NCBI GenBank assembly: GCA_943330235.2
Contig: CALQGY020000030.1
Span: forward strand, 1-33,766
Length of the DNA: 33,766 bases
Direction: 5' to 3'
From: Candidatus Kuenenia stuttgartensis
GTDB lineage: Bacteria > Gemmatimonadota > Gemmatimonadetes > Gemmatimonadales > Gemmatimonadaceae
A model generated the notes under the pieces. It was not told where the DNA came from and searched no databases. It was given only the letters and a program-made list of their open reading frames with translations. Positions within the stretch are counted from its first letter, which is position 1. Every line of letters begins with the position of its first letter. The position numbers were made by a program, and so were the translations under genes. Below, one piece after another: positions 2,581-33,766 of this stretch.

Positions 2581-4144
2581 CGCCGCGTCGGATGCGTCCG
2601 GCTCTCGCAATGCATCGGTAGTCTTCGCCGGCATTCTGGTCAGTCGTCTCCTCGGACTGGTACGGACCACGCTGGTCGCGCGCTACTTCGGAATCGGTGG
2701 TGAGGCGGACGCGTTTAACGCGGCCATCAAGATCCCGAACGCGGTGCGGAATCTGCTCGGGGAAGGGACGCTGTCCGCGTCCTTCGTTCCGGTCTACTCG
2801 CGCTTGTTGGCGAAGTCCGATGAACGCGAATCACGCGCGCTGGCCGCGGCGGTGCTCGGATTCTTGCTTGCCGGCGTATCGTTGCTGACGTTGGCGGGCA
2901 TAGTCGCCGCGCCATGGCTCACCTCTGTGCTGGCCCCCGGATTTGACGCCGAGCTGTCGGCGTTGACCACGCGGCTCACGCGCGTGCTCTTTCCCATGAC
3001 CGGCCTGATGGTGGTCAGTGGGTGGTGCTTGGGCGTGCAGAACTCGCACCGGCGATTCTTCTGGTCGTACGCCAGCGCCGCGCTCTGGTCACTTGCGCAG
3101 ATTGTGATGCTGCTCTGGTGGGGCTCGGCGGCCGTCTCGCTGGAGCAGTTGGCGTGGTGGCTCGCGTGGGCAACCCTCGTGGGCTCGGTGCTACAGGTCG
3201 TCGCGCAATTGCCCGAGGTGGTACGACTGGTCGGACGATTGCGGCCGACACTCGATCGCTCCGCAGAAGGCGTTGATCAGACGCTCCGCAACATCGGGCC
3301 TGTGGTGCTGGCGTTGGGGGTGGTCCAGATCTCCACACTGATCGACCTGCAGATTGCCTCGTTTTTGCCCGTCGGGGCCGTCAGCAGCATGACGAACGCG
3401 AATCTCATTGCGCTCCTACCGGTCTCGTTGTTTGGCGTGTCGGTTGCGGCGGCGTCGTTACCCGAGTTCTCGCGTGACTCAGGCGCGGCGCGTGAGAGCG
3501 TCCTGCTGGAACGCCTCCGTGGCGGATGGCAGCGCATTCTCTTTTACATCGTGCCCTGCGCTGTGGTGTTCCTCGCGTACGGCGATTTGTGTGTCGGCAT
3601 TCTCCTGCGGAACGGGCGGTTCGGCGCACCGGAGCAACAAGCGGTGCGGCTGGTGCTTGGAGGATTTGCGGTCGGTCTGGTCGGATTCGCGTCGGTCAAG
3701 CTGCTCGCCTCCGCGTTCTATGCGCTGCAGGACTATCGCACGCCCCTGCGTGCGTCGCTGTCGAGCCTCGCGGTGTCGGCGGTGGCGTCCATCGCCCTCG
3801 CGTATCCGCTGCGTCACGGGCCGTGGGGAGCCGCCGCGATTGCCCTTGGGAGCGCGTTCGGTTCGTTCGTCAATCTGGCGGTGCTCGTGCGTGGCTTACA
3901 CGCCAAACTCGGCGCGCTCTACACTCCCGCCATGTGGATCGGGTCGTGGCGCATCGTCGCCGCCTCGCTCTGCGCTGCCGCGGCCGCCCTGCCGCTGCGG
4001 TGGATGCTGCGCGACGTGCACCCCATGCTGGGCGGTCCTCCGACGCTCGCGGTCTTTGGCGTCGCGTATCTGCTGTCCGCCTGGTGGATGGGCTCGCGCG
4101 AAGCGTCGCGATGGATCCGTCTGGCACCTCGCGCGGCGGCATGA
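2552..4144 (+). CDS. murJ: Lipid II flippase MurJ (MviN)
   Basis: A 530-residue polytopic membrane protein of the MurJ/MviN branch of the MOP exporter superfamily. It moves lipid II across the inner membrane for peptidoglycan synthesis. The N-terminal segment has the family signature: SRLLGLVRTTLVARYFG, then ADAFNAAIKIPNAVRNLLGEG and SASFVPVYSRLL. About 13-14 hydrophobic segments are distributed along the chain, as in E. coli MurJ (511 residues). The ATG at 2552 lies inside the end of bshC, a 29-base overlap; the residues before the first helix are polar (SKGADAASDASGSRNA) and not conserved, so a slightly later start is possible. The TGA overlaps the uvrC ATG by four bases (ATGA). Confidence 0.95.
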   Translation: MPSALSKGADAASDASGSRNASVVFAGILVSRLLGLVRTTLVARYFGIGGEADAFNAAIKIPNAVRNLLGEGTLSASFVPVYSRLLAKSDERESRALAAAVLGFLLAGVSLLTLAGIVAAPWLTSVLAPGFDAELSALTTRLTRVLFPMTGLMVVSGWCLGVQNSHRRFFWSYASAALWSLAQIVMLLWWGSAAVSLEQLAWWLAWATLVGSVLQVVAQLPEVVRLVGRLRPTLDRSAEGVDQTLRNIGPVVLALGVVQISTLIDLQIASFLPVGAVSSMTNANLIALLPVSLFGVSVAAASLPEFSRDSGAARESVLLERLRGGWQRILFYIVPCAVVFLAYGDLCVGILLRNGRFGAPEQQAVRLVLGGFAVGLVGFASVKLLASAFYALQDYRTPLRASLSSLAVSAVASIALAYPLRHGPWGAAAIALGSAFGSFVNLAVLVRGLHAKLGALYTPAMWIGSWRIVAASLCAAAAALPLRWMLRDVHPMLGGPPTLAVFGVAYLLSAWWMGSREASRWIRLAPRAAA

Positions 4145-6132
4145 TGCCGGACGCACCGAGCGACGACGCCGGCGAGGCTGCGCAGGGCGCGTTCGCCACG
4201 CCAAGTGTGGTTCCGCATGAGCAGCTGTTGTCGTCGCTGCCGCTGCCGGATGACGACTGGACGCGCGCGGCGCTTGCGCGTGGGATGCCGGTGGCGGTGG
4301 CCATGAAGCTGCCGCACCTCCCCGATTCCCCCGGCGTCTACCTGTGGAAGGGGGCCGACGGGACGGTGCTGTATGTCGGGAAAGCAAAGCGGTTGCGCTC
4401 GCGCGTGCGCAGCTACTGGAGCCAGGAGCATGAGACCAGTCCGAAGACGCGCGGACTCGTGCGCAACGTGCGCGAGCTCGAGACCATCGTCGTGCCGAGC
4501 GAGTCGCACGCGCTGGTCCTCGAAGCGACGCTGATCAAGGAGCATCACCCGCGTTTCAACATCGCGTTGCGCGACGACAAATCGTATCCGTACATCAAGG
4601 TGACGGTAGCGGAGCCGTTCCCGCGCGTGCTGGTGACGCGACGTCTTCAGGAAGACGGCGCGCGCTATTTCGGTCCGTATACCGATGTCGGGGCGATGCG
4701 TCGTGCGTTGACGGTCGTGAAGCGGATCTTCACGGTGCGATCCTGTCACTATGCGCTGCCGAAGGAGGTCCCCGAGCGACCGTGCCTCGACTACTTCATC
4801 AAGCGCTGTCAGGCGCCGTGCGTCGGGTATCAGAGTCGTGCGGACTACGGCGCGATGATCGATGAAGTCGTCTGGTTCCTGGAAGGCCGTACCCGCGACG
4901 TCATGCGCCATGTCCGCGAGCGCATGCTCGAGGCATCTGAGCGCCTCGACTTCGAGCGGGCAGGCGAATTGCGTGATGCACTGCGGCATCTCGAGAAAAT
5001 GGAGGAGCCGACGAGCGTGCTCGAGGTGGAAGGCGGCGATCGTGACGTGGTCGGCTACGCGCGTGATGGGGAAGACGCGTGCGTCGTGGTGCTGCGCATT
5101 CGCGGTGGCCGACTGCTCGCCCGCGACCATCGCTTGCTTGAGCACGCCGAGGGCGAGGAGGACGGCGCCGTACTGGAGGCGAGCCTCGCGCAGTGGTATC
5201 GCACCTCGGACGCGCGCGCTGCCGACCTGCTCGTCCCGTTCGACTTCGAGGAACGGGAGGCGCTGGAGGCGTCACTGGCCGGTACGCGTATTCGCGTCCC
5301 ACAGCGCGGTCCGCGTCGGGCACTCGTGGATCTCGCCGACCAGAACGCACGGCATTTGCTCGAGGAGTTCAAGCTCGCGGCGTTCGAGGCCGACGAACGG
5401 GCCGTCGATCCGGTCTATGAACTGCAGCGTGAGCTCGGCCTCTCGGTCGTACCGCGGTCACTGATCTGCTTTGATATCTCCCACGCGCAGGGCACCGACG
5501 TCGTGGCGAGTGCCGTTTGGTTTGAAAACGCGCGGCCGAAACGGGCGGAGTATCGTAAGTTCAAAATCGCCGCTGCCGACGGGAATGACGATTTCAAGTC
5601 GATGCATGAAGTCGTGACGCGGTACTTCACGCGACGGGTAGCCGAGGGCAAGGCGCTACCGGATTTGGCCGTGATCGATGGCGGGAAGGGGCAGCTCGGT
5701 GCGGCCCGCGCCGCCCTCGATGCGCTTGGTATCGCGCAGATCGGGCTGATCAGCCTCGCCAAACGTGACGAAGAGATCTTTCTTGTAGGGCGGAGCGATC
5801 CGGTGCGGTTACCGCGACGCTCGCCGGCGCTCCGCATGTTGCAACAGGCGCGAGACGAAGCGCATCGATTCGCCATCACGTTTCAGCGTGCCAAGCGATC
5901 GGCGCGTACCCTTACGTCGGAGTTGCTCAGTATTCCCGGGGTGGGTCCCGCGAAACGACGGGTGCTGTTGACCGCCTTCGGGAGTTTGCACGGTGTAAAG
6001 TCCGCATCGATCGAAGCGATCGCCGCTCTGCCGGGCTTCGGGCGAGGGACCGCCCGAAAGTTGCTGGAAGCCCTTGGTGTTGCTGTTCCTCCAGATTCTC
6101 AGACGTCCGACCCTTCCACCCCCGAATCGTGA
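4141..6132 (+). CDS. uvrC: Excinuclease ABC subunit UvrC
   Basis: A 663-residue UvrC, the dual-incision nuclease of nucleotide excision repair that acts with UvrA and UvrB. Domains in order: GIY-YIG nuclease (about residues 60-140; PGVYLW, YVGKAKRLRSRVRSY, IKEHHPRFNI), a Cys-rich patch (CLDYFIKRCQAPC), a UVR/UvrB-binding motif (about 255-290), the RNase H-like second nuclease (FDISHAQGTDVVAS, VIDGGKGQL), and tandem helix-hairpin-helix at the C-terminus (IPGVGPAKRR, LPGFGRGTARKLL). The ATG at 4141 is chosen because it overlaps the murJ stop as ATGA, giving about 55 residues before the GIY-YIG domain that most UvrCs lack. ATGs at 4285 and 4303 would give a standard N-terminus, so the start is less certain than the identity. 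Confidence 0.96.
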   Translation: MMPDAPSDDAGEAAQGAFATPSVVPHEQLLSSLPLPDDDWTRAALARGMPVAVAMKLPHLPDSPGVYLWKGADGTVLYVGKAKRLRSRVRSYWSQEHETSPKTRGLVRNVRELETIVVPSESHALVLEATLIKEHHPRFNIALRDDKSYPYIKVTVAEPFPRVLVTRRLQEDGARYFGPYTDVGAMRRALTVVKRIFTVRSCHYALPKEVPERPCLDYFIKRCQAPCVGYQSRADYGAMIDEVVWFLEGRTRDVMRHVRERMLEASERLDFERAGELRDALRHLEKMEEPTSVLEVEGGDRDVVGYARDGEDACVVVLRIRGGRLLARDHRLLEHAEGEEDGAVLEASLAQWYRTSDARAADLLVPFDFEEREALEASLAGTRIRVPQRGPRRALVDLADQNARHLLEEFKLAAFEADERAVDPVYELQRELGLSVVPRSLICFDISHAQGTDVVASAVWFENARPKRAEYRKFKIAAADGNDDFKSMHEVVTRYFTRRVAEGKALPDLAVIDGGKGQLGAARAALDALGIAQIGLISLAKRDEEIFLVGRSDPVRLPRRSPALRMLQQARDEAHRFAITFQRAKRSARTLTSELLSIPGVGPAKRRVLLTAFGSLHGVKSASIEAIAALPGFGRGTARKLLEALGVAVPPDSQTSDPSTPES

Positions 6133-9030: not shown

Positions 9031-9063
9031 GGGGGAGGGCCATCATGGCCCGCCCCCGTTTTC
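9031..9063 (+). promoter_or_regulatory. GC-rich leader hairpin before the radical-SAM gene
   Basis: In the predicted 5' leader, GGGGG at 9031-9035 pairs with CCCCC at 9053-9057 and GGGCCAT at 9037-9043 pairs with ATGGCCC at 9045-9051, separated by one A/G mismatch. GTTTTC follows at 9058-9063, and the coding ATG is at 9073. The structure resembles an attenuator or intrinsic terminator, or a translation-blocking hairpin. It contains its own ATG (9045) opening a short overlapping reading frame. Function is inferred only. Confidence 0.5.
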
Positions 9064-10368: not shown

Positions 10369-11687
10369 GTCTTCCAGTCGTAGCTCTCGTCGGTCGCCCG
10401 AACGTCGGCAAGTCGCACCTGTTCAACCGCATCATCGGTGAGGCGACGGCCATTGTCAGCGAAGAAGCCGGCACCACGCGTGATCGCCATTTCGGTAAGG
10501 CCGATTGGGCGGGGCACCACTTCTGGCTCGTCGACACCGGTGGACTGATTGAAGACTCGAGCGTCCTGATGGACACCGAGATCCGCAAGCAGGTCATGCA
10601 GGCCATTGATGAGGCAGACCTGTTGTTGCTCGTGGTCGATGCCAAGGTGGGTATCCATCCCAGCGATGCGCGCCTGGTGGACCTGCTGCGTCACTCGCGC
10701 AAGCCGTTCCTGATCGTGGCGAACAAGGTCGACATCCCGGAAAGCACCGACTACTACGAGTTCTACCGGCTCGGGGCAGGGGACGTGTATCCGGTCTCGG
10801 CGCAGAATGGTAAGAACTCCGGCGATCTGCTCGATGCGCTCGTGCAGAAGATCCCCGAGTCACCCGTCGACGACAGTGATGCGGTGCGGATTGCCGTTAT
10901 CGGTCGGCCCAACGTCGGGAAGTCGTCGTTCGTGAACCGGTTGCTCGGCGAAGAGCGCCTCGTGGTGCATGACGAAGCCGGGACGACGCGCGATTCCATC
11001 GACGCGCCCATGCGGTATAAGGAGCGCGATCTGGTGTTCGTCGATACGGCGGGACTCCGTCGCCAATCCAAAATCGATGAAGGCGTCGAGTTCTATGCCT
11101 CGCTGCGGACCCGTCGCGCCATCGATTCGTCCGACGTGTGCATCTTGATGATCGATGCCACCGAAGGCTTGCAGAATCAGGATCTCAAGATTGCGACGAT
11201 GGCTTGGGATGCTGGCCGCGGTCTGATCTTCGTGCTCAACAAATGGGATCTGTATCCCGACAAGACGGACAAGAGCGCCGAGAAGATCCGGAAGGAAATG
11301 GTCGAGAAGGCACCTTACATCGGGTTCGTGCCGTTCCTGTTCACGTCGGCGAAGACCGGCATGCGCGTGAATAAGGTCCTCGACATGGCGCTGGCCGTGC
11401 AGGAGCAGCGCACCCGCCGCATCTCCACCTCGCAGGTGAACGAGGCGCTGCAGGAGATCATCGCGCGCTTGCAGCCGCCGCAGGCGGCCGGTCGCGAAGT
11501 GAAGCTCAACTATGCGACGCAGGTGGAAATTTCGCCGCCGACGTTCGCGTTCTTTGGCAATCATCCGGAGCTGATCCCGGAGAATTACATCCGCTTCATT
11601 CACAATCAGCTGCGCGAGAAGTGGGGATTCACCGGGTCACCCGTGCGCATCTTGATGCGTCGTAAGAGCGGGACCGCCGCGCCATGA
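10365..11687 (+). CDS. der: Ribosome-associated GTPase Der (EngA)
   Basis: A 440-residue double-GTPase needed for maturation of the 50S ribosomal subunit. Two G domains are visible. The first has GRPNVGKSHLFN (residues 10-21), DTGG and NKVD. The second has GRPNVGKSSFVN, DTAGL and NKWD. A C-terminal KH-like domain (EIIARLQPPQAAGREVKLNYATQ to the end) completes the standard Der architecture. The first P-loop has His after GKS where Thr or Ser is more usual; the core GK(S/T) is intact. Start overlaps the upstream gene as ATGA, and the stop overlaps plsY in the same way, so the four genes from the radical-SAM gene to gpsA are translationally coupled. Confidence 0.97.
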   Translation: MSLPVVALVGRPNVGKSHLFNRIIGEATAIVSEEAGTTRDRHFGKADWAGHHFWLVDTGGLIEDSSVLMDTEIRKQVMQAIDEADLLLLVVDAKVGIHPSDARLVDLLRHSRKPFLIVANKVDIPESTDYYEFYRLGAGDVYPVSAQNGKNSGDLLDALVQKIPESPVDDSDAVRIAVIGRPNVGKSSFVNRLLGEERLVVHDEAGTTRDSIDAPMRYKERDLVFVDTAGLRRQSKIDEGVEFYASLRTRRAIDSSDVCILMIDATEGLQNQDLKIATMAWDAGRGLIFVLNKWDLYPDKTDKSAEKIRKEMVEKAPYIGFVPFLFTSAKTGMRVNKVLDMALAVQEQRTRRISTSQVNEALQEIIARLQPPQAAGREVKLNYATQVEISPPTFAFFGNHPELIPENYIRFIHNQLREKWGFTGSPVRILMRRKSGTAAP

Positions 11688-12292: not shown

Positions 12293-13302
12293 TGACGATA
12301 CGCACTGTTATCCCGTGCGCGGTAGTTGGGGGCGGTGCTTGGGGAACGGCCATCGCCGATCGGCTGGTGCGCAACGGGCACCCTGTGCTGCTCTGGGCGC
12401 GCGAAGCAGACGTCGTGGAGGCCGTAAACACCCGGCATGAGAATCCTCGCTTTCTCGCGGGGGCGCCGTTGGCTCCTGCGCTGCGCGCCACCGGTGACAT
12501 GAACGACGCGTTGCGCGGTGCGGCGCTGGTGATTTACGCCGCGCCCTCGCACGTATTGCGACGCGTGGTCGCCTCTGGCCGGGACGCGGTGGCCGCTGGC
12601 GCCGTCCTCGCCGTGGCCACGAAAGGGATCGAGCGGGAAACCTTGGCGCTGATGACGGATGTTGTCGCCGAAGAAGCTCCGGGGCACGACGTCGTGGCCA
12701 TCAGCGGTCCGAGCTTCGCCGCCGAAGTCGCCTCTGGACAGCCGACGGCCGTGGTGGCCGCCTGCGCGAATCACTCGGCCGCCGTATTGGCGCAGCATGC
12801 GATGAGTGCCACGGTCTTTCGTGTCTACACCAGTGACGATGTCATCGGCGTCGAACTGGGTGGGGCTCTCAAGAACGTGATGGCGGTGGCCACCGGCATT
12901 CTCGACGGGCTTGGCCTCGGCTACAATCCGCGCGCTGCACTCATGACGCGCGGGCTGGCTGAGATGACCCGTCTCGGTGTCGCCCTCGGGGCGCGCGGCG
13001 AGACCTTCGCCGGCCTCGCCGGCCTCGGCGATCTCGTGCTCACGTGCACTGGCGCGCTATCACGAAATCGTGCACTCGGCGTCGCGATCGGGCAGGGGCA
13101 ATCGTTGGACGATGCGCTGGCCGGCAAGGACAGCGTCGCGGAGGGTGTCGTCAATACGCAGAGTGCGAGGGCGTTAGCGGCCCGCGCGGGCGTGGAAATG
13201 CCGATCGTAGAGGCCACGTATCGCATTCTCTTTGATGGACAGGCCCCGCGCGAGGCCATTGATGAGCTGATGGCGCGTGAGTTGCGCGCTGAGCGGGACT
13301 GA
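12289..13302 (+). CDS. gpsA: NAD(P)-dependent glycerol-3-phosphate dehydrogenase GpsA
   Basis: A 337-residue cytoplasmic dehydrogenase that reduces dihydroxyacetone phosphate to glycerol-3-phosphate for phospholipid synthesis. The Rossmann motif VVGGGAWGTAIADRL is at the N-terminus. It is followed by ATKGIE, the SGPSFAAEVASGQPTA block, GVELGGALKNVMAVATG with the catalytic-lysine region, and NPRAALMTRGLAEMTRLG and FAGLAGLGDLVLTC. Two in-frame ATGs at 12289 and 12292 are possible; 12289 gives the ATGA overlap with plsY used throughout this operon. It ends five bases before the MerR-like gene. Confidence 0.97.
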   Translation: MMTIRTVIPCAVVGGGAWGTAIADRLVRNGHPVLLWAREADVVEAVNTRHENPRFLAGAPLAPALRATGDMNDALRGAALVIYAAPSHVLRRVVASGRDAVAAGAVLAVATKGIERETLALMTDVVAEEAPGHDVVAISGPSFAAEVASGQPTAVVAACANHSAAVLAQHAMSATVFRVYTSDDVIGVELGGALKNVMAVATGILDGLGLGYNPRAALMTRGLAEMTRLGVALGARGETFAGLAGLGDLVLTCTGALSRNRALGVAIGQGQSLDDALAGKDSVAEGVVNTQSARALAARAGVEMPIVEATYRILFDGQAPREAIDELMARELRAERD

Positions 13303-13733: not shown

Positions 13734-14472
13734 TGACGACGGCATTCTTGCTAAGGGCCTGTCGGTCCTTGAGCGCGCGTGTGAGCCGCTCGGCGAGTTG
13801 TATGTCGTGGCGCCTGATCGGGAGCAGAGTGCGACCAGCCACTCACTGACCTTGCACCACCCACTGCGCCCCGTGCGGCTCGGCGAGCGTCGGTGGCAGG
13901 TGGACGGCACGCCGACCGACTGCGTCATGCTCGCGTGCGAAGCGTTGCTCGATGTCCGTCCCGATTTCGTGATCAGCGGGATCAATCACGGGCCCAACAT
14001 GGGTGAAGACGTGCTGTACTCGGGTACGGTCGCGGCCGCGATGGAAGGCCTCGCGCTCGGAATCCCGAGCATCGCCGTCTCGTTCGCCGGGAGCATGCTG
14101 CGCGCGGATGCGCTGCTGGAAACACAAATCGAAAGCCTTCGCGCCACGATCAAGCAGCTCATGGCGCTGCCCGCTTTCCCGAAGGACACGCTGCTCAATG
14201 TGAATCTGCCGGCGGTCGCCGCCGATCAGATCAAGGGGATGCGCTTGACGCGTCTCGGGCGACGGGTCTTCAGCGACTCAATCACCCGCATGAAGGATCC
14301 GTGGGGCAGGGATATCCTCTGGATTGGTGGCGGTACCGTGGAATGGAGCGGTCCTGACGACTCCGATTTTCGTGCCGTTCACGATGGCTATGTATCCGTG
14401 ACACCGCTGCATCTCGACCTAACGCATCAGCCGACCCTCGACAGCGCGGCGGACTGGTGGCCAGCGCAGTAG
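13714..14472 (+). CDS. surE: 5'/3'-nucleotidase SurE
   Basis: A 252-residue SurE phosphatase, the same size as the E. coli protein (253). The metal-site motifs are intact: MRILLSNDDGILAKG at the N-terminus with the paired Asp residues, PDREQSATSHSLT, and SGINHGPNMGEDVLYSGTV. The family dephosphorylates nucleoside 5'- and 3'-monophosphates and can act on polyphosphate. The ATG at 13714 lies inside the end of the MerR-like gene (20-base overlap) and its stop lies inside pcm (16-base overlap). The surE-pcm pairing is a well-known arrangement linked to stationary-phase survival. Confidence 0.97.
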   Translation: MRILLSNDDGILAKGLSVLERACEPLGELYVVAPDREQSATSHSLTLHHPLRPVRLGERRWQVDGTPTDCVMLACEALLDVRPDFVISGINHGPNMGEDVLYSGTVAAAMEGLALGIPSIAVSFAGSMLRADALLETQIESLRATIKQLMALPAFPKDTLLNVNLPAVAADQIKGMRLTRLGRRVFSDSITRMKDPWGRDILWIGGGTVEWSGPDDSDFRAVHDGYVSVTPLHLDLTHQPTLDSAADWWPAQ

Positions 14473-17204: not shown

Positions 17205-17278
<74 letters not shown>

Positions 17279-17429: not shown

Positions 17430-18092
17430 ATGGCGCAGGCCTCGCGCTCCACCGCCTCCTCGGGTCTTTCCGACGATCCGATTGAGAACCTCACCACGTG
17501 GCTCCAGCTGAACCAGAAGCCGATCTTGGCTGTGGTCGGCGTGATTGCGCTTGGAGCGGCCGCCATCTTTGGCTACCGCGCCATGGATGCGAGCAAGCGG
17601 ACTGCCGCGAACAACGACTTGTACAAGGCGACGGCGCCGATGATGGAGGGGAAGTTGCCGGAGGCTCAGGCCGCCTTGGAGAAGGTGGCGCAGCGCTACT
17701 CCGGCACGGCCTCTGGTTCACAGGCGGCGTTGCTTCTGGCTCAGGTGTTCTACGATCAGCAGAAGTTCGCCGAAGGCATCGCGGCCTTGGAAAAGGCGAA
17801 GGGATCCGCCGGCAGCGAGTTCGGGACGTCGGTCGAGGCGCTCATCGCGGCTGGGTACGAATCACAGGGTAAGTTCGAGCAGGCCGCAGAGCATTTTGCC
17901 AAGGCGGCCTCGGCGGCTCGATTCCCGCTGGATAAGGCTGCCAACCAAGCGTCACAGGCTCGCAGTTTGACCATGGCCGGTAAGCCCGCCGACGCCCGCA
18001 AGATTTGGGAAGAGCTGGCAAAGCAGGAAGATCTGCCGTTTGCCCAGGAAGCTCAGGTGCGCATGGGCGAGCTTGCAGGGGCCGGTAAGTAA
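17430..18092 (+). CDS. Membrane-anchored TPR protein (YfgM-like)
   Basis: A 220-residue protein with one N-terminal membrane segment (residues 31-50, PILAVVGVIALGAAAIFGY) after a short cytoplasmic tail, so the rest is expected to be periplasmic. The soluble part is built of TPR-like helical pairs (KLPEAQAALEKVAQRYSGTASGSQAALLLAQ, KFAEGIAALEKAK, GKFEQAAEHFAKAA, GKPADARKIWEELA). This layout matches the YfgM family, which in E. coli associates with SecYEG and periplasmic chaperones; that function is inferred here from architecture only. It is the last + strand gene before the strand switch, and a strong hairpin follows. Confidence 0.82.
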   Translation: MAQASRSTASSGLSDDPIENLTTWLQLNQKPILAVVGVIALGAAAIFGYRAMDASKRTAANNDLYKATAPMMEGKLPEAQAALEKVAQRYSGTASGSQAALLLAQVFYDQQKFAEGIAALEKAKGSAGSEFGTSVEALIAAGYESQGKFEQAAEHFAKAASAARFPLDKAANQASQARSLTMAGKPADARKIWEELAKQEDLPFAQEAQVRMGELAGAGK

Positions 18093-18149
18093 GGGACTTG
18101 GCGAACGTGCGGGCGCGGCCGATTTCGACCGGCGCCTGAGTATCTCGAG

Positions 18150-18189
18150 AACGGCCCACGCGCAGTGATGCGCCTGGGCCGTTTGGCTT
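18150..18189 (+). terminator. Long hairpin terminator-like structure after the TPR gene
   Basis: AACGGCCCA at 18150-18158 pairs with TGGGCCGTT at 18175-18183, and GCGCA (18160-18164) with TGCGC (18169-18173), separated by one C/C mismatch and closed by a GTGA loop. TGGCTT follows, a weak U-tract. It closes off the + strand gene set before the dif-like site. Confidence 0.72.
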
Positions 18190-18328: not shown

Positions 18329-18356
18329 TATGCGCATAATACATGTTATGTAAACC
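18329..18356 (+). other. dif: XerCD dif recombination site (chromosome terminus), predicted
   Basis: The 28 bases divide as an 11-bp XerC-type arm TATGCGCATAA (18329-18339), a 6-bp centre TACATG (18340-18345) and an 11-bp XerD-type arm TTATGTAAACC (18346-18356). Against the E. coli dif as I remember it, the left arm matches 9 of 11 (including TGCGCATAA intact) and the right arm 8 of 11. Against the remembered B. subtilis site the right arm matches 10 of 11. It is an AT-rich island in GC-rich surroundings and lies in the gap where all + strand genes on the left meet all - strand genes on the right. That is where a terminus should be if genes follow replication. XerC/XerD would resolve chromosome dimers here under FtsK control. 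Confidence 0.85.
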
Positions 18357-18383
18357 TAACATGGTGGATAACTGTGGGAAAAG
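18357..18383. promoter_or_regulatory. AT-rich flank of dif with DnaA-box-like doublet
   Basis: Directly beside the dif-like core, GGTGGATAA at 18363-18371 reads TTATCCACC on the other strand (8 of 9 to the DnaA box). TGTGGGAAA at 18373-18381 is a 7 of 9 match in the same direction, ten bases on. TAACAT at 18357-18362 also forms an inverted repeat with ATGTTA at 18343-18348. This could be a DnaA titration or regulatory site, or chance. Confidence 0.35.
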
Positions 18384-18583
18384 ATTGGACGCCGCTCCAG
18401 TACTGCCGTGGATGGCGTAGGCTAAGCCGTTGATATCAAATCGTTTATGGATTGGTTGCGCCCCGTCGCGTGCGTTGCGACGTCCGACTGCTGGAATGTG
18501 TGCACCTGTCCACACTCCCCGGTCCGCGCCAGAGCCACTTGGAGGCCGACTGCGCAACGTGCTGGCGGGTGGCGCCGCGGTGC
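18384..18583. other. Gene-free remainder of the convergent gap
   Basis: Within the 529-base gap 18093-18621, the stretch right of the dif flank shows no convincing gene. Open frames here lack ribosome binding sites and family resemblance. The only structure I see is a small inverted repeat GTGTG (18498-18502) / CACAC (18511-18515). The part from 18190 to 18328 is G-rich on the + strand and otherwise featureless. Confidence 0.6.
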
Positions 18584-18615
18584 CTTTCATGGCCCCTTCA
18601 GGGCGCCCATGAAAG
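18584..18615 (-). terminator. Hairpin after dapF
   Basis: CTTTCATGG at 18584-18592 pairs with CCATGAAAG at 18607-18615, with an additional CCC/GGG stem closed by TTCA inside. It begins six bases beyond the dapF stop on the - strand. There is no U-tract beyond it, so it is a terminator by position and stem strength only. Confidence 0.6.
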
Positions 18616-18621
18616 CCTCGC

Positions 18622-19488
18622 CTAGAGGCCCAGATCGCCGATCACGCCGCGGAAGACCACGCGGCCTTCGCCGCGCAGTGTGGGCCGCCAGCCGACGTTC
18701 GAGTGCTCAAGGTGCACGGTCAGGATCCGCCCGGAGCTGGTGAGTATGCGTACTGGCGATCGGGCCATTCCCCACGTGGACAGCAGGATGGCCGTGGCCA
18801 CGGCGCCCGTGCCGCACGCCAGCGTCTCCCCTTCCACGCCCCGCTCAAAGGTCCGGTAGCGCCACGTCCCGTCAGCTCTGGGTGACACCCAATTGACGTT
18901 CGCCCCAGCGGCCCCCACGGCGGGATGCCGGCGCAGGTGCGGTCCGCGGGCGGTGACATCAATGGCATCCGCGTCCGCGCAGAGCACCACCAGGTGCGGG
19001 ATACCCGCCATGGCGAACCCAATGCGCTGCTCGCCGTCGATCGGGGCAATGGGAAGGTCGGTGGTGATCTGGTCCACCGGCTGGAGATCGATCTCCGGCA
19101 TGCCGTCCGTCAGTCGGCTCGCGATGAGGCCGGCGGGGGTGGCCAATTGCATGGCGTTACCGTGGACCAACCCCAGCTCGACGGACATGACGGTCGAGCA
19201 CAGGGTGGCGTTACCGCACAAATCTGCCGGCGTTCCGTCACTGTTGAAATAGGCGATGGTGACCTGCGCCGGCTGAATCTCCGCGTCGTGGCGTGTCGGT
19301 GTGGCCTGCGGGCGCGCTTCAAGAATGACTATTCCATCGGCGCCGATCCCGTTGTGGCGATTGCAGATCGATCGGATCACCTCAGGCAATACCAGACGTT
19401 CGCGGTCGATCGTTCGGGCGTCGAAGAAGACAAAGTCATTCCCCGATCCGGTCATCTTCGCGAAGGGTACATCACGAAGTGTCGACAT
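18622..19488 (-). CDS. dapF: Diaminopimelate epimerase
   Basis: A 288-residue enzyme converting LL- to meso-diaminopimelate for lysine and peptidoglycan. Conserved blocks are FAKMTGSGNDFVFFD at the N-terminus, the first catalytic-Cys region DLCGNATLC, and RTFERGVEGETLACGTGAVA with the second catalytic Cys. The first motif departs from the common CGNGxRC (Ala-Thr-Leu instead of Gly-x-Arg), but both Cys are present. The ATG at 19488 is chosen because AAGGA (complement of 19496-19500) lies seven bases upstream; in-frame ATG 19494 and TTG 19506 are too close to or upstream of it. It is the last - strand gene before the convergent gap. Confidence 0.93.
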   Translation of the reverse strand: MSTLRDVPFAKMTGSGNDFVFFDARTIDRERLVLPEVIRSICNRHNGIGADGIVILEARPQATPTRHDAEIQPAQVTIAYFNSDGTPADLCGNATLCSTVMSVELGLVHGNAMQLATPAGLIASRLTDGMPEIDLQPVDQITTDLPIAPIDGEQRIGFAMAGIPHLVVLCADADAIDVTARGPHLRRHPAVGAAGANVNWVSPRADGTWRYRTFERGVEGETLACGTGAVATAILLSTWGMARSPVRILTSSGRILTVHLEHSNVGWRPTLRGEGRVVFRGVIGDLGL

Positions 19489-19540
19489 CCACATATCCTT
19501 GGGCAAGAACTCGAAAGGTGAACCGCGCGACGCACGCGGG

Positions 19541-20302
19541 TCAGAAGCGACCGGTAATTCCCCACCACCGCAGTCGCCAGACCATCAGCACGGCTTCACG
19601 GACGATGCCCTTGGACATCTTCGACTCACCCTCGGTTCGGTCATGAAACACGATGGGAATCTCGGCGATACGGAACCCTCGCTTCCATGCCCGAAAGCTC
19701 ATTTCGATTTGGAACGCGTAGCCGTTGGAGATGACCTTCTCGAGAGGAATGGCCTCAAGCACATGCCGACGGAAGCACTTGAAGCCGCCCGTCGCATCCC
19801 ACAGCTGCATGCCGGTGATCGCGCGCGCGTAGATGTTTGCGCCATACGAGAGCATGAGTCGCGTCATGGGCCAGTTCACCACGGTCACCTTCCCGTCCCG
19901 GTAGCGCGATCCGAGCACCAGATCGGCATTCTTGATGGCGTCGAGGAACTCGGGGAGGTGGGACGGATCATGCGAGAAATCGGCGTCCATCTCGAAAATC
20001 AAATCGTATTTCTTCTCGAGCGCCCACTGAAAACCGGCCAAGTAGGCACGGCCAAGTCCCTCCTTCCCCGCACGATGCAGAACGTGAATCCGCGGCTCAT
20101 CAGCGGCCATCTCGTCGACGAGACGTCCCGTGCCATCCGGCGAGTTGTCATCGACGACGAGCACTTCCAGGCGAGGGTCCTGTGCCAGAATCTTGGGCAC
20201 GATCCTCGTAATGTTCTCGCTCTCGTTATAGGTCGGAACGATGACCAGCCCACGTTCTTCAATCGACAGGGCGCCGCGCGCCGGCGTCAGAATTCTGGAC
20301 AC
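19541..20302 (-). CDS. Polyprenol-phosphate mannosyltransferase-like GT2
   Basis: A 253-residue family 2 glycosyltransferase of the dolichol-phosphate mannose synthase class. It has IVPTYNESENI (residues 21-31), VVDDNSPDGTG (49-59), the metal-binding EMDADFSHDP (104-113) and GSRYRDGK. A family-typical GGFKCFRR and a C-terminal RTEGESKMSKGIVREA follow. It lacks the C-terminal membrane domain found in longer homologues. It would load a sugar, probably mannose, onto a polyprenyl phosphate at the cytoplasmic membrane face, providing a donor for periplasmic glycosylation. The GTG at 20302 avoids overlap with the upstream gene; an in-frame TTG at 20365 would add 21 residues and a 53-base overlap. 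Confidence 0.88.
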   Translation of the reverse strand: MSRILTPARGALSIEERGLVIVPTYNESENITRIVPKILAQDPRLEVLVVDDNSPDGTGRLVDEMAADEPRIHVLHRAGKEGLGRAYLAGFQWALEKKYDLIFEMDADFSHDPSHLPEFLDAIKNADLVLGSRYRDGKVTVVNWPMTRLMLSYGANIYARAITGMQLWDATGGFKCFRRHVLEAIPLEKVISNGYAFQIEMSFRAWKRGFRIAEIPIVFHDRTEGESKMSKGIVREAVLMVWRLRWWGITGRF

Positions 20303-20312
20303 GCTGGCTCTC

Positions 20313-22754
20313 TCAGGCAGCAGATGATGGTGTGCGACGGCGATCGGTGACGAGCCCGCCGACAATCAGGACGAGGGTCAACACGAGTGCACCCAACGTG
20401 ATGAGTCGCCCGGAATGGTACGGTGCGCTATCGAAGCGCAGACTGACGGACTTGGCGCCGGTCGGCAGTGCGAGGCCGATCAGTGAGTAGTCCGCGCGTG
20501 CCGTGGGCGTCGCTTTGCCATCGACGGTTGCGGTCCACCCCGGATAAAAGTTTTCCGATACAACGAGCGCGCTGCCGGCCGGGGCGGCTGCATCGAGGGT
20601 GAGGTCGATGGCCCCCGGTTCGTAGCGCGTGAAATGGACGCCAGTTACAATGGCCGCCGGGAGCGGCGAATTGACGGGCTGGGCGGTGACGGACGACGCC
20701 GTGTCGAAGATCGCGACTCGGCGGACATCGAAGAGCGGGTTGAGCACCGTGGACTTCGTCGTCGCATCATCGAGCTTGACGATCATGGGGGCGACCCATG
20801 CTGCCGGATGTGATCCGGGAAGCTCGAACAGATAGGTCATGGTCCCGGCTGCGTTCTTGACCGGCCCGGCGACCAATGTCGCGCCCTGAAAGGGCACGGT
20901 GTTGGCGTTCGTGTAGAAGAAGCGTGCGTTGGCGAGGGACCAGAAGTTCGGGTTCGCCACGCCTTGGAAGCCGTCGTTCTTGCCATAGAGATCCTGAAAT
21001 CTGCCGATCTCATTTCCGTGGTAGCCGAGCACGCCGCGCACTTGGTGATGCATGAGCGCATCGCCGAGCACGAACGGATCGTGCGGCGCCATGTTCTCGC
21101 TGAGAGGCAGGGCGATCACGCGTCCGGGCTGCGGTTGCGACTTGAGGTACTTCACAATGGCATCTTCGGCGTAGAGCTGGTCGGCGCGCTCGGAAAAACG
21201 CCAGTAGCTCTGTTCGACACTCCAGAGGTCGAGCGCCACGATACCCAGTAGCACCCAGCCCGCGCGAGCCGCTGGCAGCTTCCCGCGCGCGGTCATCCAC
21301 ATGGCGATGATCGTGAGGAACACGAAGAACGCCGAGCGCCACGCGCCGATGACCACGTTGGCCGCATTCGCCTCAATGGCGTCCGCGCGCTCGCCCAGAA
21401 TGCCCATCGCCAGATTCGTCAGACCGCCGGTCGTGGCGAGCACGCCGACGAGGATGGCGATCGACGCCCAGACCATGGCGTACCGGGTGGACGCTCGGCC
21501 CGCGAGCACGCGCTCCGCTCCAAATGCGGATAGCACGGCGGTCGAGAACGCCACGACATACAGAATGGTGCTTGGCGCCCGAAAGAATTTCGTGCCGGGG
21601 ACGATCGCGTAGACGAGCTGGTAGAACGGCGTGTTGCCGCCCCACGCCCAGAAGAGCGAGACCGCGAGCGCGCCCAACCAGAACCACGCATGCTTGCGGT
21701 GACGGTTGAGGAGACCGCCCCCAAACGCAAACATGGCAAGCACTAAGACGCTTGCGCCGATGTATTCACTGTGAAAGTGGATCCCGTTCCGTCCCCAGTA
21801 ATTCTCAAGAATTCCGGAGAACTGTGGGAGGTAGGTGTTGATCGTTTCTTCCAGCGGGAAGGAATACGAGATGGCGTGATCCCATCCCTTACCGCCGGCG
21901 CGCGGCGACCACGGCGTGTATTCGAGTACCGGGAGATACTGGATGGCGCTGATCGCGCCGCCCAGGAGAACGGCGACGGCGGCGAAGCCGAGGCGCGGGA
22001 GTGCGTGCGTGCGCTCCCCCGTCGTGGTGGCCGCAGGGATCGCGTCACCGATCGACGCACCGCTCTCCGTCGGAAGCGCGGTTGGACGCATCGCCACGAA
22101 CAGCGCGAAGGCGCCGGCCGTCAGCAGCATGTACTGCAGCAGCTGCGGGTGCGGTGAGAGAGCGGCAAGGCCCACGATGAGTGCGAGCGCACCCCAGGCC
22201 GCACGTCGTCCATCCCGAATCCCACGCACGAGCGCCCACAGTGCGGCGGGCAGCAGCGCGCTCACGAAGAGCTTGCCGTCGTGGCCCGGTGACGCGTACG
22301 AGGCCAGTGCCCCGCTGAGTAAGTACGCGACGCCGCCAATGGCCGCGCTTTGAAAGCGCACGCCAGCAGCCCGGAGAAAGCCGAAGGTGAAGAAACCGGC
22401 CAGCATCATGTGGAGCACGAAGCCCCAGGTCATGGCGATGTCCGTGGGCAACACCATGCGCAGCAGAAACGTGGGGTAGAAAATGTCGCCGTGCATGGCG
22501 GCGACGTACGGCATACCGCCGAATTGATAAGGATTCCACAGGGGAAATCCGTGTCCCTCTCGCAGCGAGCGCGCCGCGAATTCGCGGAAGGAGTATCCGG
22601 CGATGTACTGGTCGGAATTCGGATTCACCAAGAAGGCGCCACCTATCGCCGGCCACGCTAAGAGCAGCGTGGCACACGCGGAGATGAGCGCGGCCCAGAG
22701 GAGTGGGCGGCGCGGAGCGATTTCAGGTGTGGCCGGCGCGTCTGTTCGTGCCAT
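20313..22754 (-). CDS. YfhO-family multi-pass membrane protein
   Basis: An 813-residue integral membrane protein. Residues 18-45 form a first helix, followed by a periplasmic segment (VNPNSDQYIAGYSFREFAARSLREGHGFPLWNPYQFGG) and about a dozen further helices up to residue 510. A large soluble C-terminal region then ends with one more helix near residues 780-805. The early WNPYQFGGMPY block and the long soluble tail fit the YfhO family (GT-C-like membrane proteins linked to lipoteichoic acid or surface-glycan modification). With a polyprenol-phosphate sugar synthase directly downstream, a glycosyltransferase using that lipid donor on the outer face of the inner membrane is the natural inference; the acceptor is unknown. 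Confidence 0.82.
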   Translation of the reverse strand: MARTDAPATPEIAPRRPLLWAALISACATLLLAWPAIGGAFLVNPNSDQYIAGYSFREFAARSLREGHGFPLWNPYQFGGMPYVAAMHGDIFYPTFLLRMVLPTDIAMTWGFVLHMMLAGFFTFGFLRAAGVRFQSAAIGGVAYLLSGALASYASPGHDGKLFVSALLPAALWALVRGIRDGRRAAWGALALIVGLAALSPHPQLLQYMLLTAGAFALFVAMRPTALPTESGASIGDAIPAATTTGERTHALPRLGFAAVAVLLGGAISAIQYLPVLEYTPWSPRAGGKGWDHAISYSFPLEETINTYLPQFSGILENYWGRNGIHFHSEYIGASVLVLAMFAFGGGLLNRHRKHAWFWLGALAVSLFWAWGGNTPFYQLVYAIVPGTKFFRAPSTILYVVAFSTAVLSAFGAERVLAGRASTRYAMVWASIAILVGVLATTGGLTNLAMGILGERADAIEANAANVVIGAWRSAFFVFLTIIAMWMTARGKLPAARAGWVLLGIVALDLWSVEQSYWRFSERADQLYAEDAIVKYLKSQPQPGRVIALPLSENMAPHDPFVLGDALMHHQVRGVLGYHGNEIGRFQDLYGKNDGFQGVANPNFWSLANARFFYTNANTVPFQGATLVAGPVKNAAGTMTYLFELPGSHPAAWVAPMIVKLDDATTKSTVLNPLFDVRRVAIFDTASSVTAQPVNSPLPAAIVTGVHFTRYEPGAIDLTLDAAAPAGSALVVSENFYPGWTATVDGKATPTARADYSLIGLALPTGAKSVSLRFDSAPYHSGRLITLGALVLTLVLIVGGLVTDRRRTPSSAA

Positions 22755-22795
22755 GAATCACGCGGAGAGGAAAAGGAATACGGCGGTGGTGGTGA

Positions 22796-23755
22796 TCAGC
22801 TACGACGGCGAGTGAGATCGCGCGCAGCGCCTGGCGACAACAGCAGCGCCGTCACTCCCGGGAGGATTTCCCAGACAGTCAGCCAGAGCCGGGAGGAGAG
22901 TGCTAACACGGTGGCGTCTGCGCTGCCGGCGAGTCCCAACGCCACCAATGCCGAGGCCATCACCACTTCCCGAACGCCGATGCCGCCTGGTACCAGAAGC
23001 ACAAGATAACCGCTGAGATACGAGGCCGTCCAAATCACGATGAAGAGCGGGGGGCTGGCGATGACCTGTGGGGCCACGCCACGCGCAAATGCCGCGAATG
23101 CGATCCCGTAAAGCGCCCACGACGCGACGTTCATGGCGGTCGAAATCCAGAGCACGCGGGCGGAGAGATGTCGCTCCGGCATAGGGAGCCCCCGCCAGCG
23201 AGCCAGACGCTCGAGAATTGGGGGCAATAGGCGCGGCAAGCAGAGCGTCCCAATCACGAAGACCACGCTGACGGCGAGCGCGGCGTCACGGAGCCACGGT
23301 TTGAAGACGCCAAGTACGCGGGTACCGCTGATGGCGATGATCCCGAAACCAGCGCCGATATTCAGCAGGGTGCCAAGAATCGCGGCCCCCGCGGCTGAAA
23401 TGCCGGAGACCCCTTCCCTGCCGGCCAGGACACCGAGCGCGCCAACGGACCACACTTTCCCGGGGACGTAGCGTCCGAGGTTGGCGATGGTCCAGATGCG
23501 CATGGCGGCGGAAAATCGCAGTGGGCTCCCCCAGTCGGCGAGGAGCAGGCGCCAACTCTGGATCAGCATGCCATAGGTGAAGAGCACGATGGCGCTCGCC
23601 AGCACGATCCAGAGCCAGTGGACCGACATCGACGACAGCGACGCGCGGAGCGCGTCCCACTGCTGGGCGATCTTGCGCGCGGCCCAGAAGAGGGCGATCG
23701 CGATGATTAGCAGTTGCGCCAGCTTCCAGAGTCGCACCCATCCGGTGGCCTTCAC
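22796..23755 (-). CDS. Lysylphosphatidylglycerol synthase TM-region family protein
   Basis: A 319-residue membrane protein with seven to eight predicted helices, matching the flippase-like transmembrane domain seen at the N-terminus of MprF (UPF0104/COG0392). It has the signature GRYVPGKVWSVG and the C-terminal block YLVLLVPGGIGVREVVMASAL. The aminoacyl-transferase domain of full MprF is absent, so it should not synthesise lysyl-phosphatidylglycerol. Stand-alone members commonly sit among glycosyltransferases and are thought to handle lipid-linked intermediates. The GTG start overlaps the end of the GT4 gene by four bases (GTGA), indicating coupling. Confidence 0.88.
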   Translation of the reverse strand: MKATGWVRLWKLAQLLIIAIALFWAARKIAQQWDALRASLSSMSVHWLWIVLASAIVLFTYGMLIQSWRLLLADWGSPLRFSAAMRIWTIANLGRYVPGKVWSVGALGVLAGREGVSGISAAGAAILGTLLNIGAGFGIIAISGTRVLGVFKPWLRDAALAVSVVFVIGTLCLPRLLPPILERLARWRGLPMPERHLSARVLWISTAMNVASWALYGIAFAAFARGVAPQVIASPPLFIVIWTASYLSGYLVLLVPGGIGVREVVMASALVALGLAGSADATVLALSSRLWLTVWEILPGVTALLLSPGAARDLTRRRS

Positions 23756-24999
23756 GCGGGCATCCGCTGGCGCCCATCATCCGCATCGAGTGCGGCGTGG
23801 TAGATCCCGAGGTATTGCGCGGCCACCGCTTCCGGGCTGAATCGATGGCGCATGCGCTCGTGCGCGAGCCGTCCGCGCCTGCTGGACTCGCGCGCGTCGT
23901 GAGCCGGAATGGCGAGTGCGTTGGCGAGGGCGTCGATATCACCAGCCGGCACCAATGTTCCGCCGGCATCGACCTGAACGACGTCGGGCAGACCGCCGGA
24001 GTCGTAGGCGACGACCGGAGCGCCACAGAGCTGCGCTTCGACGGCGACGAGCCCCAGTCCCTCTTCGCGCGATGGCATCGCGACGACCGCGGCGCGCTGG
24101 TAGAGTGGCAACAGATCGGGTTGCGGCAGGGCGCCGTGCCATCGAAGCCGCGAGGCGACGCCGAGTGCGTCCGCTTGCGCTTGCAGTGCGTCCCGATCGG
24201 GGCCATCGCCTACGATGTCGAGCGCTGCGCTGTGCAACGCCGGGTGCGCCATGGCAGCCAGCAGGTCACTGATCCCCTTCTGCGCATTCAGGCGTCCGAC
24301 GAACAGCACGTCTCGCCGGGCGACGCCAGCGATCCCCGCGTCTACCGGGATCCAGAAGTGCCGAGTATCCACCGGCATTGGTGCCACACGAATGGCACGG
24401 CCCTTCGCAATGCGCTGGGCGTTGGTGGCCAGCCACGTTGAGACGGCCGTGCAGATGACAAAATCGTCCAGGACCGACCGCATCAGCGCGCGCGCGGGGA
24501 AGATCTGCTGCGCCAGGCGCACGTCGGAGCCGTGCATCGTGAGCACGCGGGCGGGGGCGCCATTGGTCGGCCCTCCGCGCGCCGGGAGTCCCTTGGGGAG
24601 CAGACTCCAGAGGGCGAGGCCGGCGGGAAACCACCAATGCGCGTGCACGACGTCGAACGGGTCGCCCGCCTGCGCGGCATTCGCGACCTGCGCGCGAACG
24701 GCCCGTCGTAACGTGCGCAGCATCCCCAGGAGGGCAAACCGCGCGCGCCACGAGCGCCGGACTTGCTCGACCATGGTTCCGGTGTAGGCCAGTGTCATGG
24801 CGGCGTCGTTGGCGTACCGGATTCTGTGAATGGGGACGCCTTCGATCGTACCAATGGCGCCGAGCCCCGGAGCGCCAGGCGCGATGATCTCCACGCGCGC
24901 GCCGGCACCTTGCAGCGCCACCGCGAGTCGCAAGATGAACGATCCCGCCGCGTCATTGGCGACGCGCGGGACGTTGTGTGTGACGAAGAGAACGCGCAC
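23752..24999 (-). CDS. Glycosyltransferase family 4
   Basis: A 415-residue GT-B-fold glycosyltransferase. The N-terminal acceptor domain starts MRVLFVTHNVPRVANDAAGSF and contains DVVHAHWWFPAGLAL. The C-terminal donor domain has VLFVGRLNAQKGISDLLAA, LDIVGDGPDRDAL and the EX7E-type motif PSREEGLGLVAVEAQLCGAP. It likely transfers an activated nucleotide sugar to a lipid-linked or LPS acceptor on the cytoplasmic face; the sugar is not predictable. GTG start, 15 bases after the GT2 gene. It belongs to the envelope-glycan part of the operon. Confidence 0.92.
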   Translation of the reverse strand: MRVLFVTHNVPRVANDAAGSFILRLAVALQGAGARVEIIAPGAPGLGAIGTIEGVPIHRIRYANDAAMTLAYTGTMVEQVRRSWRARFALLGMLRTLRRAVRAQVANAAQAGDPFDVVHAHWWFPAGLALWSLLPKGLPARGGPTNGAPARVLTMHGSDVRLAQQIFPARALMRSVLDDFVICTAVSTWLATNAQRIAKGRAIRVAPMPVDTRHFWIPVDAGIAGVARRDVLFVGRLNAQKGISDLLAAMAHPALHSAALDIVGDGPDRDALQAQADALGVASRLRWHGALPQPDLLPLYQRAAVVAMPSREEGLGLVAVEAQLCGAPVVAYDSGGLPDVVQVDAGGTLVPAGDIDALANALAIPAHDARESSRRGRLAHERMRHRFSPEAVAAQYLGIYHAALDADDGRQRMPA

Positions 25000-25014
25000 G
25001 CGAATGGCGTCGCG

Positions 25015-26088
25015 TCAGGCCGAGCCGGACGTCGCCGAGCCGGACGTCGCCGAGCCGGACGTCGCCGAGTCGGAATTCACCGACGCAGGGCGCGCCGCCA
25101 GTTCTCGGCGACGTGCATCGGCATCAAGCTCCCGCCGGAGTTCGCGCAATTCCGCACGTTGCTGCGCGATCTGCTCTCCGAGCAGGCCGGTGGCGAAGAA
25201 GATGGATCCAAGAACCAGACAAGTCTGAATCAGTGTCCAGACCCAGCGTTGTCCCTGCCCGGATGCGAGCAGCCAACCCAACGCGGAGAGTCCTGACAGG
25301 ACGCCAACGGCGAAGAGCGCCGCACCGAGCATGCCGAAGGCCAAGAGCGGCTTTTGCCCGAATCGGAGTTCGAACCACACGGCGAGCATATCGAGCACGC
25401 CCACCGGGATGCGCGAGAACCCGAATTTGGAGCGTCCGGAATGCCGTGCATAAAGGGGGACCGGCACTTCCGTGACGGTGAAGCCCTGTGCCGCGGCCAA
25501 CACGATCATGTAGCGATGGAAATCCGGGCGCATGGGGAGTGCGGCCATGATCTCGCGTCGATAGGCCTTCACGTTGTTGAGATCGCGCACCGGGATCTCG
25601 AACAGCGTACGACTGAGGCCGTTGTAGATGCGTGAGACAAAGGCCTTCTCATACTTGCCCTGCTTGAAGCCGGTCACCATGTCCGATTCGCCGGCCATGA
25701 TGGGCGCGACGAGCCGGGGGATGTCCTCGGGCTTGAACTGCAGATCGGCCGGATAAAATACGAGAATGTCGCCGCGCGCGTTCAGATAGCCGGTGCGCAG
25801 CGCTTCGGCGATGCCGCGCTGCGTACGATGGCGCACGGGACGCAGAAACGGGTACTGCGGCATGAGCGATTGCAGCAGCGCCCAACTCTCGTCGCGCGAG
25901 CCGTCATCGATGACGATGACTTCATATCGCTCAGTCTGTACGGCGAAGGTCTCTCGGCACAGCTCCAAAAAGAGCGCGAGATTGCCGGCTTCATCCTTCG
26001 CCGGGACGAGGACACTGACATCGATGACAGCGGTTGGCGCGGCAGCGGCCTCGCGCGCCGAAACGGCGCCGGAAACAGGAGCGGTCAC
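25015..26088 (-). CDS. GT2 glycosyltransferase with C-terminal membrane helices
   Basis: A 357-residue family 2 glycosyltransferase. VSVLVPAKDEAGNL (residues 24-37) and VIVIDDGSRDESW (57-69) form the nucleotide-sugar site. The usual DxD position reads FYPADLQFKPED, so the first Asp of a canonical DxDLQ is replaced and only one Asp remains there. GFKQGKYEK and a GRSKFGF block follow. Two membrane helices (about 265-290 and 300-325) and a short coiled-coil (QIAQQRAELRELRREL) precede a repetitive Ser/Ala/Thr/Gly tail. The layout resembles bactoprenol-phosphate sugar transferases (GtrB/ArnC-like). The GTG at 26088 follows the rpoN stop by 13 bases; translation further upstream would run inside rpoN. 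Confidence 0.87.
   Translation of the reverse strand: MTAPVSGAVSAREAAAAPTAVIDVSVLVPAKDEAGNLALFLELCRETFAVQTERYEVIVIDDGSRDESWALLQSLMPQYPFLRPVRHRTQRGIAEALRTGYLNARGDILVFYPADLQFKPEDIPRLVAPIMAGESDMVTGFKQGKYEKAFVSRIYNGLSRTLFEIPVRDLNNVKAYRREIMAALPMRPDFHRYMIVLAAAQGFTVTEVPVPLYARHSGRSKFGFSRIPVGVLDMLAVWFELRFGQKPLLAFGMLGAALFAVGVLSGLSALGWLLASGQGQRWVWTLIQTCLVLGSIFFATGLLGEQIAQQRAELRELRRELDADARRRELAARPASVNSDSATSGSATSGSATSGSA
25021..25065. repeat. Three tandem 15-bp repeats at the GT2 C-terminus
   Basis: CGAGCCGGACGTCGC occurs three times exactly, followed by a partial fourth copy with changes. On the - strand it encodes repeated Ser-Ala-Thr-Ser-Gly up to the stop. Copy number changes would lengthen or shorten the tail in frame. 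Confidence 0.95.
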
Positions 26089-26101
26089 AGGTCGTCCCGG
26101 G

Positions 26102-30494: not shown

Positions 30495-30500
30495 GACGGG

Positions 30501-33554: not shown

Positions 33555-33555
33555 G

Positions 33556-33766
33556 TCAGTGCGCGGCCTCGACTGATCCTACCGCGCGTGCGACGTGGTG
33601 CTGTTCGGCGGCCGCGACGAAACCCGCGAAGAGTGGATGCGGCCGGAGCGGACGCGATTGCAGTTCCGGATGGAACTGACAGCCGATGAACCACGGATGC
33701 GACGGCAATTCAATCATCTCGACGAGCGATCCGTCGGGCGACATGCCGCTCAAGCGCATGCCATGC
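33556..33766 (-). CDS. pyrG: CTP synthase, C-terminal end
   Basis: The 3' end of a gene that enters the window from the right, about 70 residues. It shows the closing part of the class I glutamine amidotransferase domain of CTP synthase: [40 protein letters not shown]. The glutaminase-triad His and Glu are in QFHPE. CTP synthase aminates UTP to CTP. Its position one base before kdsA is biologically sensible because CTP activates Kdo as CMP-Kdo, and pyrG-kdsA neighbours are common in diderms. Confidence 0.95.

Follow-up and report, generated by a model that had tools for sequence, protein, structure and literature searches.

Results

The window analyzed here is the whole stretch of 33,766 nt, which is one entire contig (C30) of a draft genome from the genus Gemmatimonas, a soil/water bacterium (4.02 Mb in 223 contigs). 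All genes of the window lie on the + strand up to 18092, and all lie on the - strand from 18622 to the contig end. The gap between them contains a dif site of 28 bp, two hairpins, and two 9-mers (GGTGGATAA and TGTGGGAAA; 18363-18381, 10 bp apart) that are near-invariant across the genus and were overlooked in the preliminary description. The features of the gap and its flanking genes are as follows.

17430..18092, + strand: TPR-repeat protein gene, left flanking gene (PF09976/PF13432)
18149..18184, + strand: hairpin 3' of the TPR gene (inverted repeat, 15 nt arms, about -28.6 kcal/mol)
18329..18339, + strand: dif XerC-type arm, TATGCGCATAA (9/11 to the E. coli arm)
18340..18345, + strand: dif central region, TACATG (the same in 22/23 genus loci; the exception has TATTTG)
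18346..18356, + strand: dif XerD-type arm, TTATGTAAACC (10/11 to the B. subtilis arm)
18363..18371, + strand: box 1, DnaA-box-like, GGTGGATAA (other strand TTATCCACC), starting 7 bp past the XerD arm
18373..18381, + strand: box 2, DnaA-box-like, TGTGGGAAA (other strand TTTCCCACA), 10 bp past box 1 and near-invariant in 23 genus loci
about 18583..18612, - strand: hairpin 3' of dapF, from folding of the - strand
18622..19506, - strand: dapF (diaminopimelate epimerase), right flanking gene (TIGR00652, 156.8 bits; cut-off 114.65)

The preliminary description had reported the 28 bp with an 11-6-11 split at 18329-18356, located at a strand switch and closed by hairpins on both sides. Its coordinates and letters were confirmed, as were the strand switch and the two hairpins. 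The better-arm matches that it gave, 9/11 to E. coli and 10/11 to B. subtilis, were also reproduced, and the total arm score was 17/22 against E. coli dif and 15/22 against B. subtilis dif. When the window was simulated 200 times with a first-order Markov model, a score of at least 17 for the E. coli arms was reached once. The site had further been called the only AT-rich island. It is indeed the most A+T-rich 40-bp block of the region (0.62), but the block at 18421-18460 is also A+T-rich (0.57). The 28 bp are single-copy in their own 4.02-Mb genome even when up to three mismatches are allowed.

Two other features of the window were observed. A tRNA-Arg(CCT) gene, flanked by apt and the TPR gene, lies at 17205-17278, some 1.1 kb to the left of dif, and an Rfam search of the window gave this tRNA as its sole match. 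The UvrC reading frame at 3526-6132 has 868 aa and begins about 260 aa ahead of the start of the UvrC match. Its extra N-terminal part is probably an upstream false start, overlapping an ORF at 2552-4144.

Conservation of dif and its gene setting

The conservation of the site was examined in relatives. With up to three mismatches to the 28 bp, 24 of 61 genomes matched, every one within the genus. A 24-bp core with a free centre, searched with at most one mismatch, was found in 26 of the 29 other genus members. The core was also present in many other genera (reversed control, 0 matches in 119 genomes), and related cores occurred in 178 of 297 genomes of a phylum sample, where the reversed control gave 1 match. 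The XerD-arm core TTATGTNAA was retained throughout this phylum sample, and other families carry a more divergent form of dif, TNCGYATAA-N6-TTATGTNAA. Named public genomes with the dif core were Gemmatimonas, Gemmatimonadaceae and Gemmatimonadetes records, together with one labelled just 'bacterium'.

An alignment of 23 distinct loci from the genus had at least 96% identity in 23 of the 28 dif columns, and the XerC-type arm was conserved genus-wide save at positions 1, 2 and 7. The XerC-side flank of the same loci, 150 bp upstream, had a mean conservation of about 0.45. The 28 bp are thus conserved in close relatives, a point named for testing in the preliminary description, while the flank beside them is not kept to the same degree. 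The gene order SurE, apt, TPR > dif < dapF, GT2, rpoN, lptB was kept in three closed genomes. The TPR gene stood beside dif in every genus locus whose contig extends that far, dapF adjoined dif order-wide, and the arrangement apt > dif < dapF was frequent in other families.

Each closed relative had one dif copy. Five drafts (G010, G024, G038, G117 and G301) had two dif matches each, mainly near contig ends and with near-identical flanks; these pairs are probably strain variants or duplicated assembly.

Position of dif at the replication terminus

The terminus was located in three closed relatives of the same genus, each a single contig (G020, G028 and G029). The cumulative GC-skew maximum within +-200 kb lay +114, +134 and +84 bp from dif, in the dif orientation. 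Coarse skew sampling of the whole chromosome showed a sign change at dif in G020 and G029 and was noisy in G028. The distance between dif and dnaA was 42-45% of the chromosome in these three genomes and 48% in G069.

The strand bias of octamers was analyzed with dnaA and dif marking the ends of the replichores. It was strongest for GGGCAGGG (145 leading : 15 lagging), an octamer that agrees with the E. coli KOPS consensus GGGNAGGG. In the three closed relatives, KOPS polarity flipped inside intervals of 7-9 kb that contain dif. The window holds six GGGNAGGG motifs on the + strand left of dif and two on the - strand right of it, and all of them point to dif.

2760..2767, + strand: KOPS-like GGGNAGGG, points to dif
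5683..5690, + strand: KOPS-like GGGNAGGG, points to dif
9032..9039, + strand: KOPS-like GGGNAGGG, points to dif
10774..10781, + strand: KOPS-like GGGCAGGG, points to dif
13090..13097, + strand: KOPS-like GGGCAGGG, points to dif
14304..14311, + strand: KOPS-like GGGCAGGG, points to dif
23411..23418, - strand: KOPS-like GGGNAGGG, points to dif
25253..25260, - strand: KOPS-like GGGCAGGG, points to dif

The preliminary description had placed the site at the replication terminus and predicted a GC-skew extremum near it. The terminal position is supported by the skew maxima and the KOPS switch of the relatives. The predicted extremum was found in the three closed relatives, 84-134 bp from dif. In the window itself cumulative GC skew had no turnover at 18343, the right side averaged +0.014 and the maximum lay at 30955. 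The sharpest slope changes in the window were at 18502 (GC) and 18598 (AT). To the right of dif (18343-33766), skew was weakly positive despite the all-minus genes and became negative past about 31 kb; the closed relatives differ in this respect. The three closed relatives provide a clean coincidence of GC skew, KOPS and dif outside the well-studied phyla.

The genes for the partner proteins are encoded: XerD (347 bits; cut-off 329.6), XerC (335.3 bits, barely above its cut-off of 335.15) and FtsK-gamma (FtsK_gamma, 91 bits). By its own letters the 28-bp sequence was suggestive of dif, and its conservation made the assignment certain. Because of its uniqueness, conservation and gene order, the skew and KOPS of relatives, and the genes for XerC, XerD and FtsK-gamma, we take 18329-18356 to be the chromosomal dif, which is established as far as sequence allows and is practically beyond doubt.

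A separate observation was made on G236:C1, where the match starts of dnaA and parB are equidistant from dif on opposite sides (1,435,202 and 1,435,103 bp). In relatives of G236, dnaA and parB are 36-112 kb apart. This symmetry could stem from an inversion centred on dif or from assembly, or it could be coincidental.

DnaA-box-like 9-mers at a fixed distance from the XerD arm

The genus alignment contained a second conserved block directly past the XerD arm, GTGGATAA-S-(T/C)GTGGGAAA (window 18364-18381), which covers the two boxes. Its GTGGATAA, belonging to box 1, was invariant in 23/23 genus loci. The block was unique in the window at up to three mismatches. With up to two mismatches, the paired element occurred solely beside dif in G000, G020 and G029, and G028 had one further 2-mismatch match.

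The boxes were then followed in eight families (f1 to f8). Of 55 genera in five families, 44 had a TGTGG[A/G]NAA box 15-17 bp beyond the XerD arm, where about 0.001 per locus would be expected; the count takes one locus per genus, and a binomial P for it assumes independent genera and is overstated. Written as GTGGRNA, this is box 2 at +17/18 in 44/55 genera of f1, f2, f3, f4 and f6. Box 1, 10 bp nearer dif, was present in 21/55 genera of the same families (GTGGRNA at its position in 15/24 genera of f1, 3/20 of f2/f3 and 3/11 of f4/f6). With the genus set aside, the f1 set had 25 GTGG[AG]NAA matches on the dif-oriented strand (about 27.6 kb), every one of them at one of the two box positions. 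Although the surroundings of dif differ in the other families, a TGTGG[A/G]NAA box persists there at +16/+17, often accompanied by another one 10 bp nearer dif. Since the flanks are so diverged, the box reflects more than shared ancestry alone.

In f5, f7 and f8, box 2 was present in 0/26 loci. As these families have dif without an XerD-side box, Xer recombination in general does not depend on the box. Some lineages have an inverted box copy further out, and there are sometimes three boxes per accessory element. At four f5 loci (L266, L267, L269 and L270), TTTTCCACA was observed 15-20 bp outside the XerC arm, as an outward-reading mirror of the XerD-side box. The distribution of the box may not be confined to this class.

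The boxes were compared with DnaA boxes of the clade. The class-wide box consensus TTNTCCACA fits TTWTNCACA except for a free third base, and both boxes of the window (TTATCCACC and TTTCCCACA) deviate from TTATNCACA. Almost every region upstream of dnaA in these families carried TT[T/A/G]TCCACA, usually within a few bases of a TTGAC promoter element. The dnaA upstream region of G069 contains TTTCCCACA itself, beside TTGTCCACG and TTTTCCACA. Judged by its letters, the dif box is of the same type as the DnaA boxes in the clade's own dnaA promoters. The DnaA domain IV motif RDHSTVIHS was present in 29/29 DnaA proteins. We infer that DnaA is the likeliest protein at the predicted boxes.

Within 1.5 kb of dnaA, the genus members showed no clear cluster of DnaA boxes. 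The 10-bp box pair recurred just past parB in G069, and in that genome only; by number this recurrence is close to chance, and its place alone is suggestive. Most genomes also encode a second protein with two tandem DnaA-type AAA+ domains (G000:C27:4514-6352 and equivalents; model about 100-340 twice), which had no match to the DnaA DNA-binding domain.

Discussion

The E. coli dif/XerCD-FtsK system and the Gemmatimonas site have in common the 11-6-11 structure, the converging GGGNAGGG polarity and XerC, XerD and FtsK-gamma, and the Gemmatimonas arms match those of E. coli at 9/11 and 8/11. Unlike Gemmatimonas, E. coli MG1655 has no GTGGRNAA box past its XerD arm. Kono et al. (2011) predicted dif in 1/1 Gemmatimonadetes genomes then available, using a Firmicutes profile (PMC3025954), and that dif is almost certainly orthologous to the Gemmatimonas site. 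The dif reading is therefore known in kind, and probably for this clade as well. The main text of that paper leaves dif flanks and DnaA unmentioned (PMC3025954).

Accessory sequences are known from the plasmid Xer sites cer and psi, where they work with PepA, ArgR and ArcA (PMC5357621). Like these sites, Gemmatimonas dif has accessory protein sites, here predicted, adjoining the recombination core. The accessory sequences of cer and psi are plasmid-borne and about 180 bp long, whereas those in Gemmatimonas are one to three 9-mers at a chromosomal dif. The usual picture is that FtsK controls the Xer reaction and that accessory sites are a plasmid feature (PMC5357621). Predicting dif for one more genus is routine; an accessory element that is conserved and keeps a constant spacing to a chromosomal dif departs from that picture. 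As non-origin DnaA-box-like sites, the boxes also resemble datA, DARS1 and DARS2 of E. coli. To our knowledge, none of these three is tied to dif at a fixed distance. They have been handled as separate loci (PMC4585315), and a 2026 review, as far as its accessible text goes, handles dif and DnaA boxes separately. In the open-access literature, we found no report of DnaA-type boxes that keep a constant spacing to a chromosomal dif.

We propose that the locus combines dif with a DnaA-box accessory element that affects Xer recombination, and give this joint reading a probability of about 0.6. XerC and XerD would bind the two arms of dif, and septal FtsK, steered by the converging GGGNAGGG motifs, would activate them, so that chromosome dimers would be resolved at the replication terminus. 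The accessory element next to the XerD arm, made up of one or two and occasionally three DnaA-box-like 9-mers, would be bound, most likely by DnaA. The bound protein may act jointly with the Xer complex or with FtsK coming from the XerD side; for example, activation of XerD could be licensed or blocked by the replication state. Both the binding of DnaA to the box and the effect of the box on Xer recombination are putative parts of this model. A joint complex is favoured over mere titration of DnaA because the spacing between box and XerD arm is fixed within about 2 bp over several families.

The site could instead be a plain dif, and the boxes a locus that, like datA or DARS, titrates DnaA or sets timing, lies at the terminus incidentally and leaves Xer recombination unaffected. 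We consider this rather unlikely. The boxes are of the DnaA-box sequence type, a copy-number timer would be sensibly located at the terminus, and f5, f7 and f8 lack the box and have a presumably functional dif. However, titration does not require a constant spacing to the XerD arm, and box 2 stands at +16/+17 in almost all box-bearing genera, and box 1 lies one helical turn nearer the arm. The likeness to DnaA boxes might also be accidental, with the boxes binding another protein such as a Tus/RTP-like fork-arrest protein or a clade-specific Xer accessory factor. Any base (A/C/G/T) can stand at position 7 of the box, the boxes of the genus are imperfect DnaA boxes, the site is polar and terminal, and some lineages have added an inverted copy, all of which would suit such a protein. 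This appears less likely still, as the dnaA promoters of the same genomes carry the same 9-mer type; moreover, a fork trap needs oppositely oriented sites to either side of it, and in 3/4 genomes the paired element was confined to dif (up to 2 mismatches).

Two further functions were considered for the boxes and rejected. Being G-rich and adjoining dif, they could be taken for FtsK-orienting KOPS. They point away from dif and have a strand bias of only 289:235 over 2.3 Mb, and the role is already filled by GGGCAGGG at 145:15, which makes a KOPS function hardly credible. The inverted copy, found downstream in 17/84 loci against about 1 expected, might suggest that a transcription terminator lies between the convergent genes, with the boxes as its arms. 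An RNA hairpin or terminator was rejected for most loci, where no complementary arm is present. Mean folding z-scores were near zero to -0.9, and in the window each flanking gene already has its own hairpin at the 3' side, so we regard this function as very improbable.

It is quite possible, though we would put the odds slightly against it, that in most bacteria of the class Gemmatimonadetes DnaA binds directly next to dif, in a constant helical phase relative to XerD, and either gates dimer resolution or reports the completion of replication to initiation. Such gating or reporting would physically connect the beginning of the chromosome cycle with its end in a direct way. If DnaA does bind there, replication initiation and dimer resolution would have a common component.
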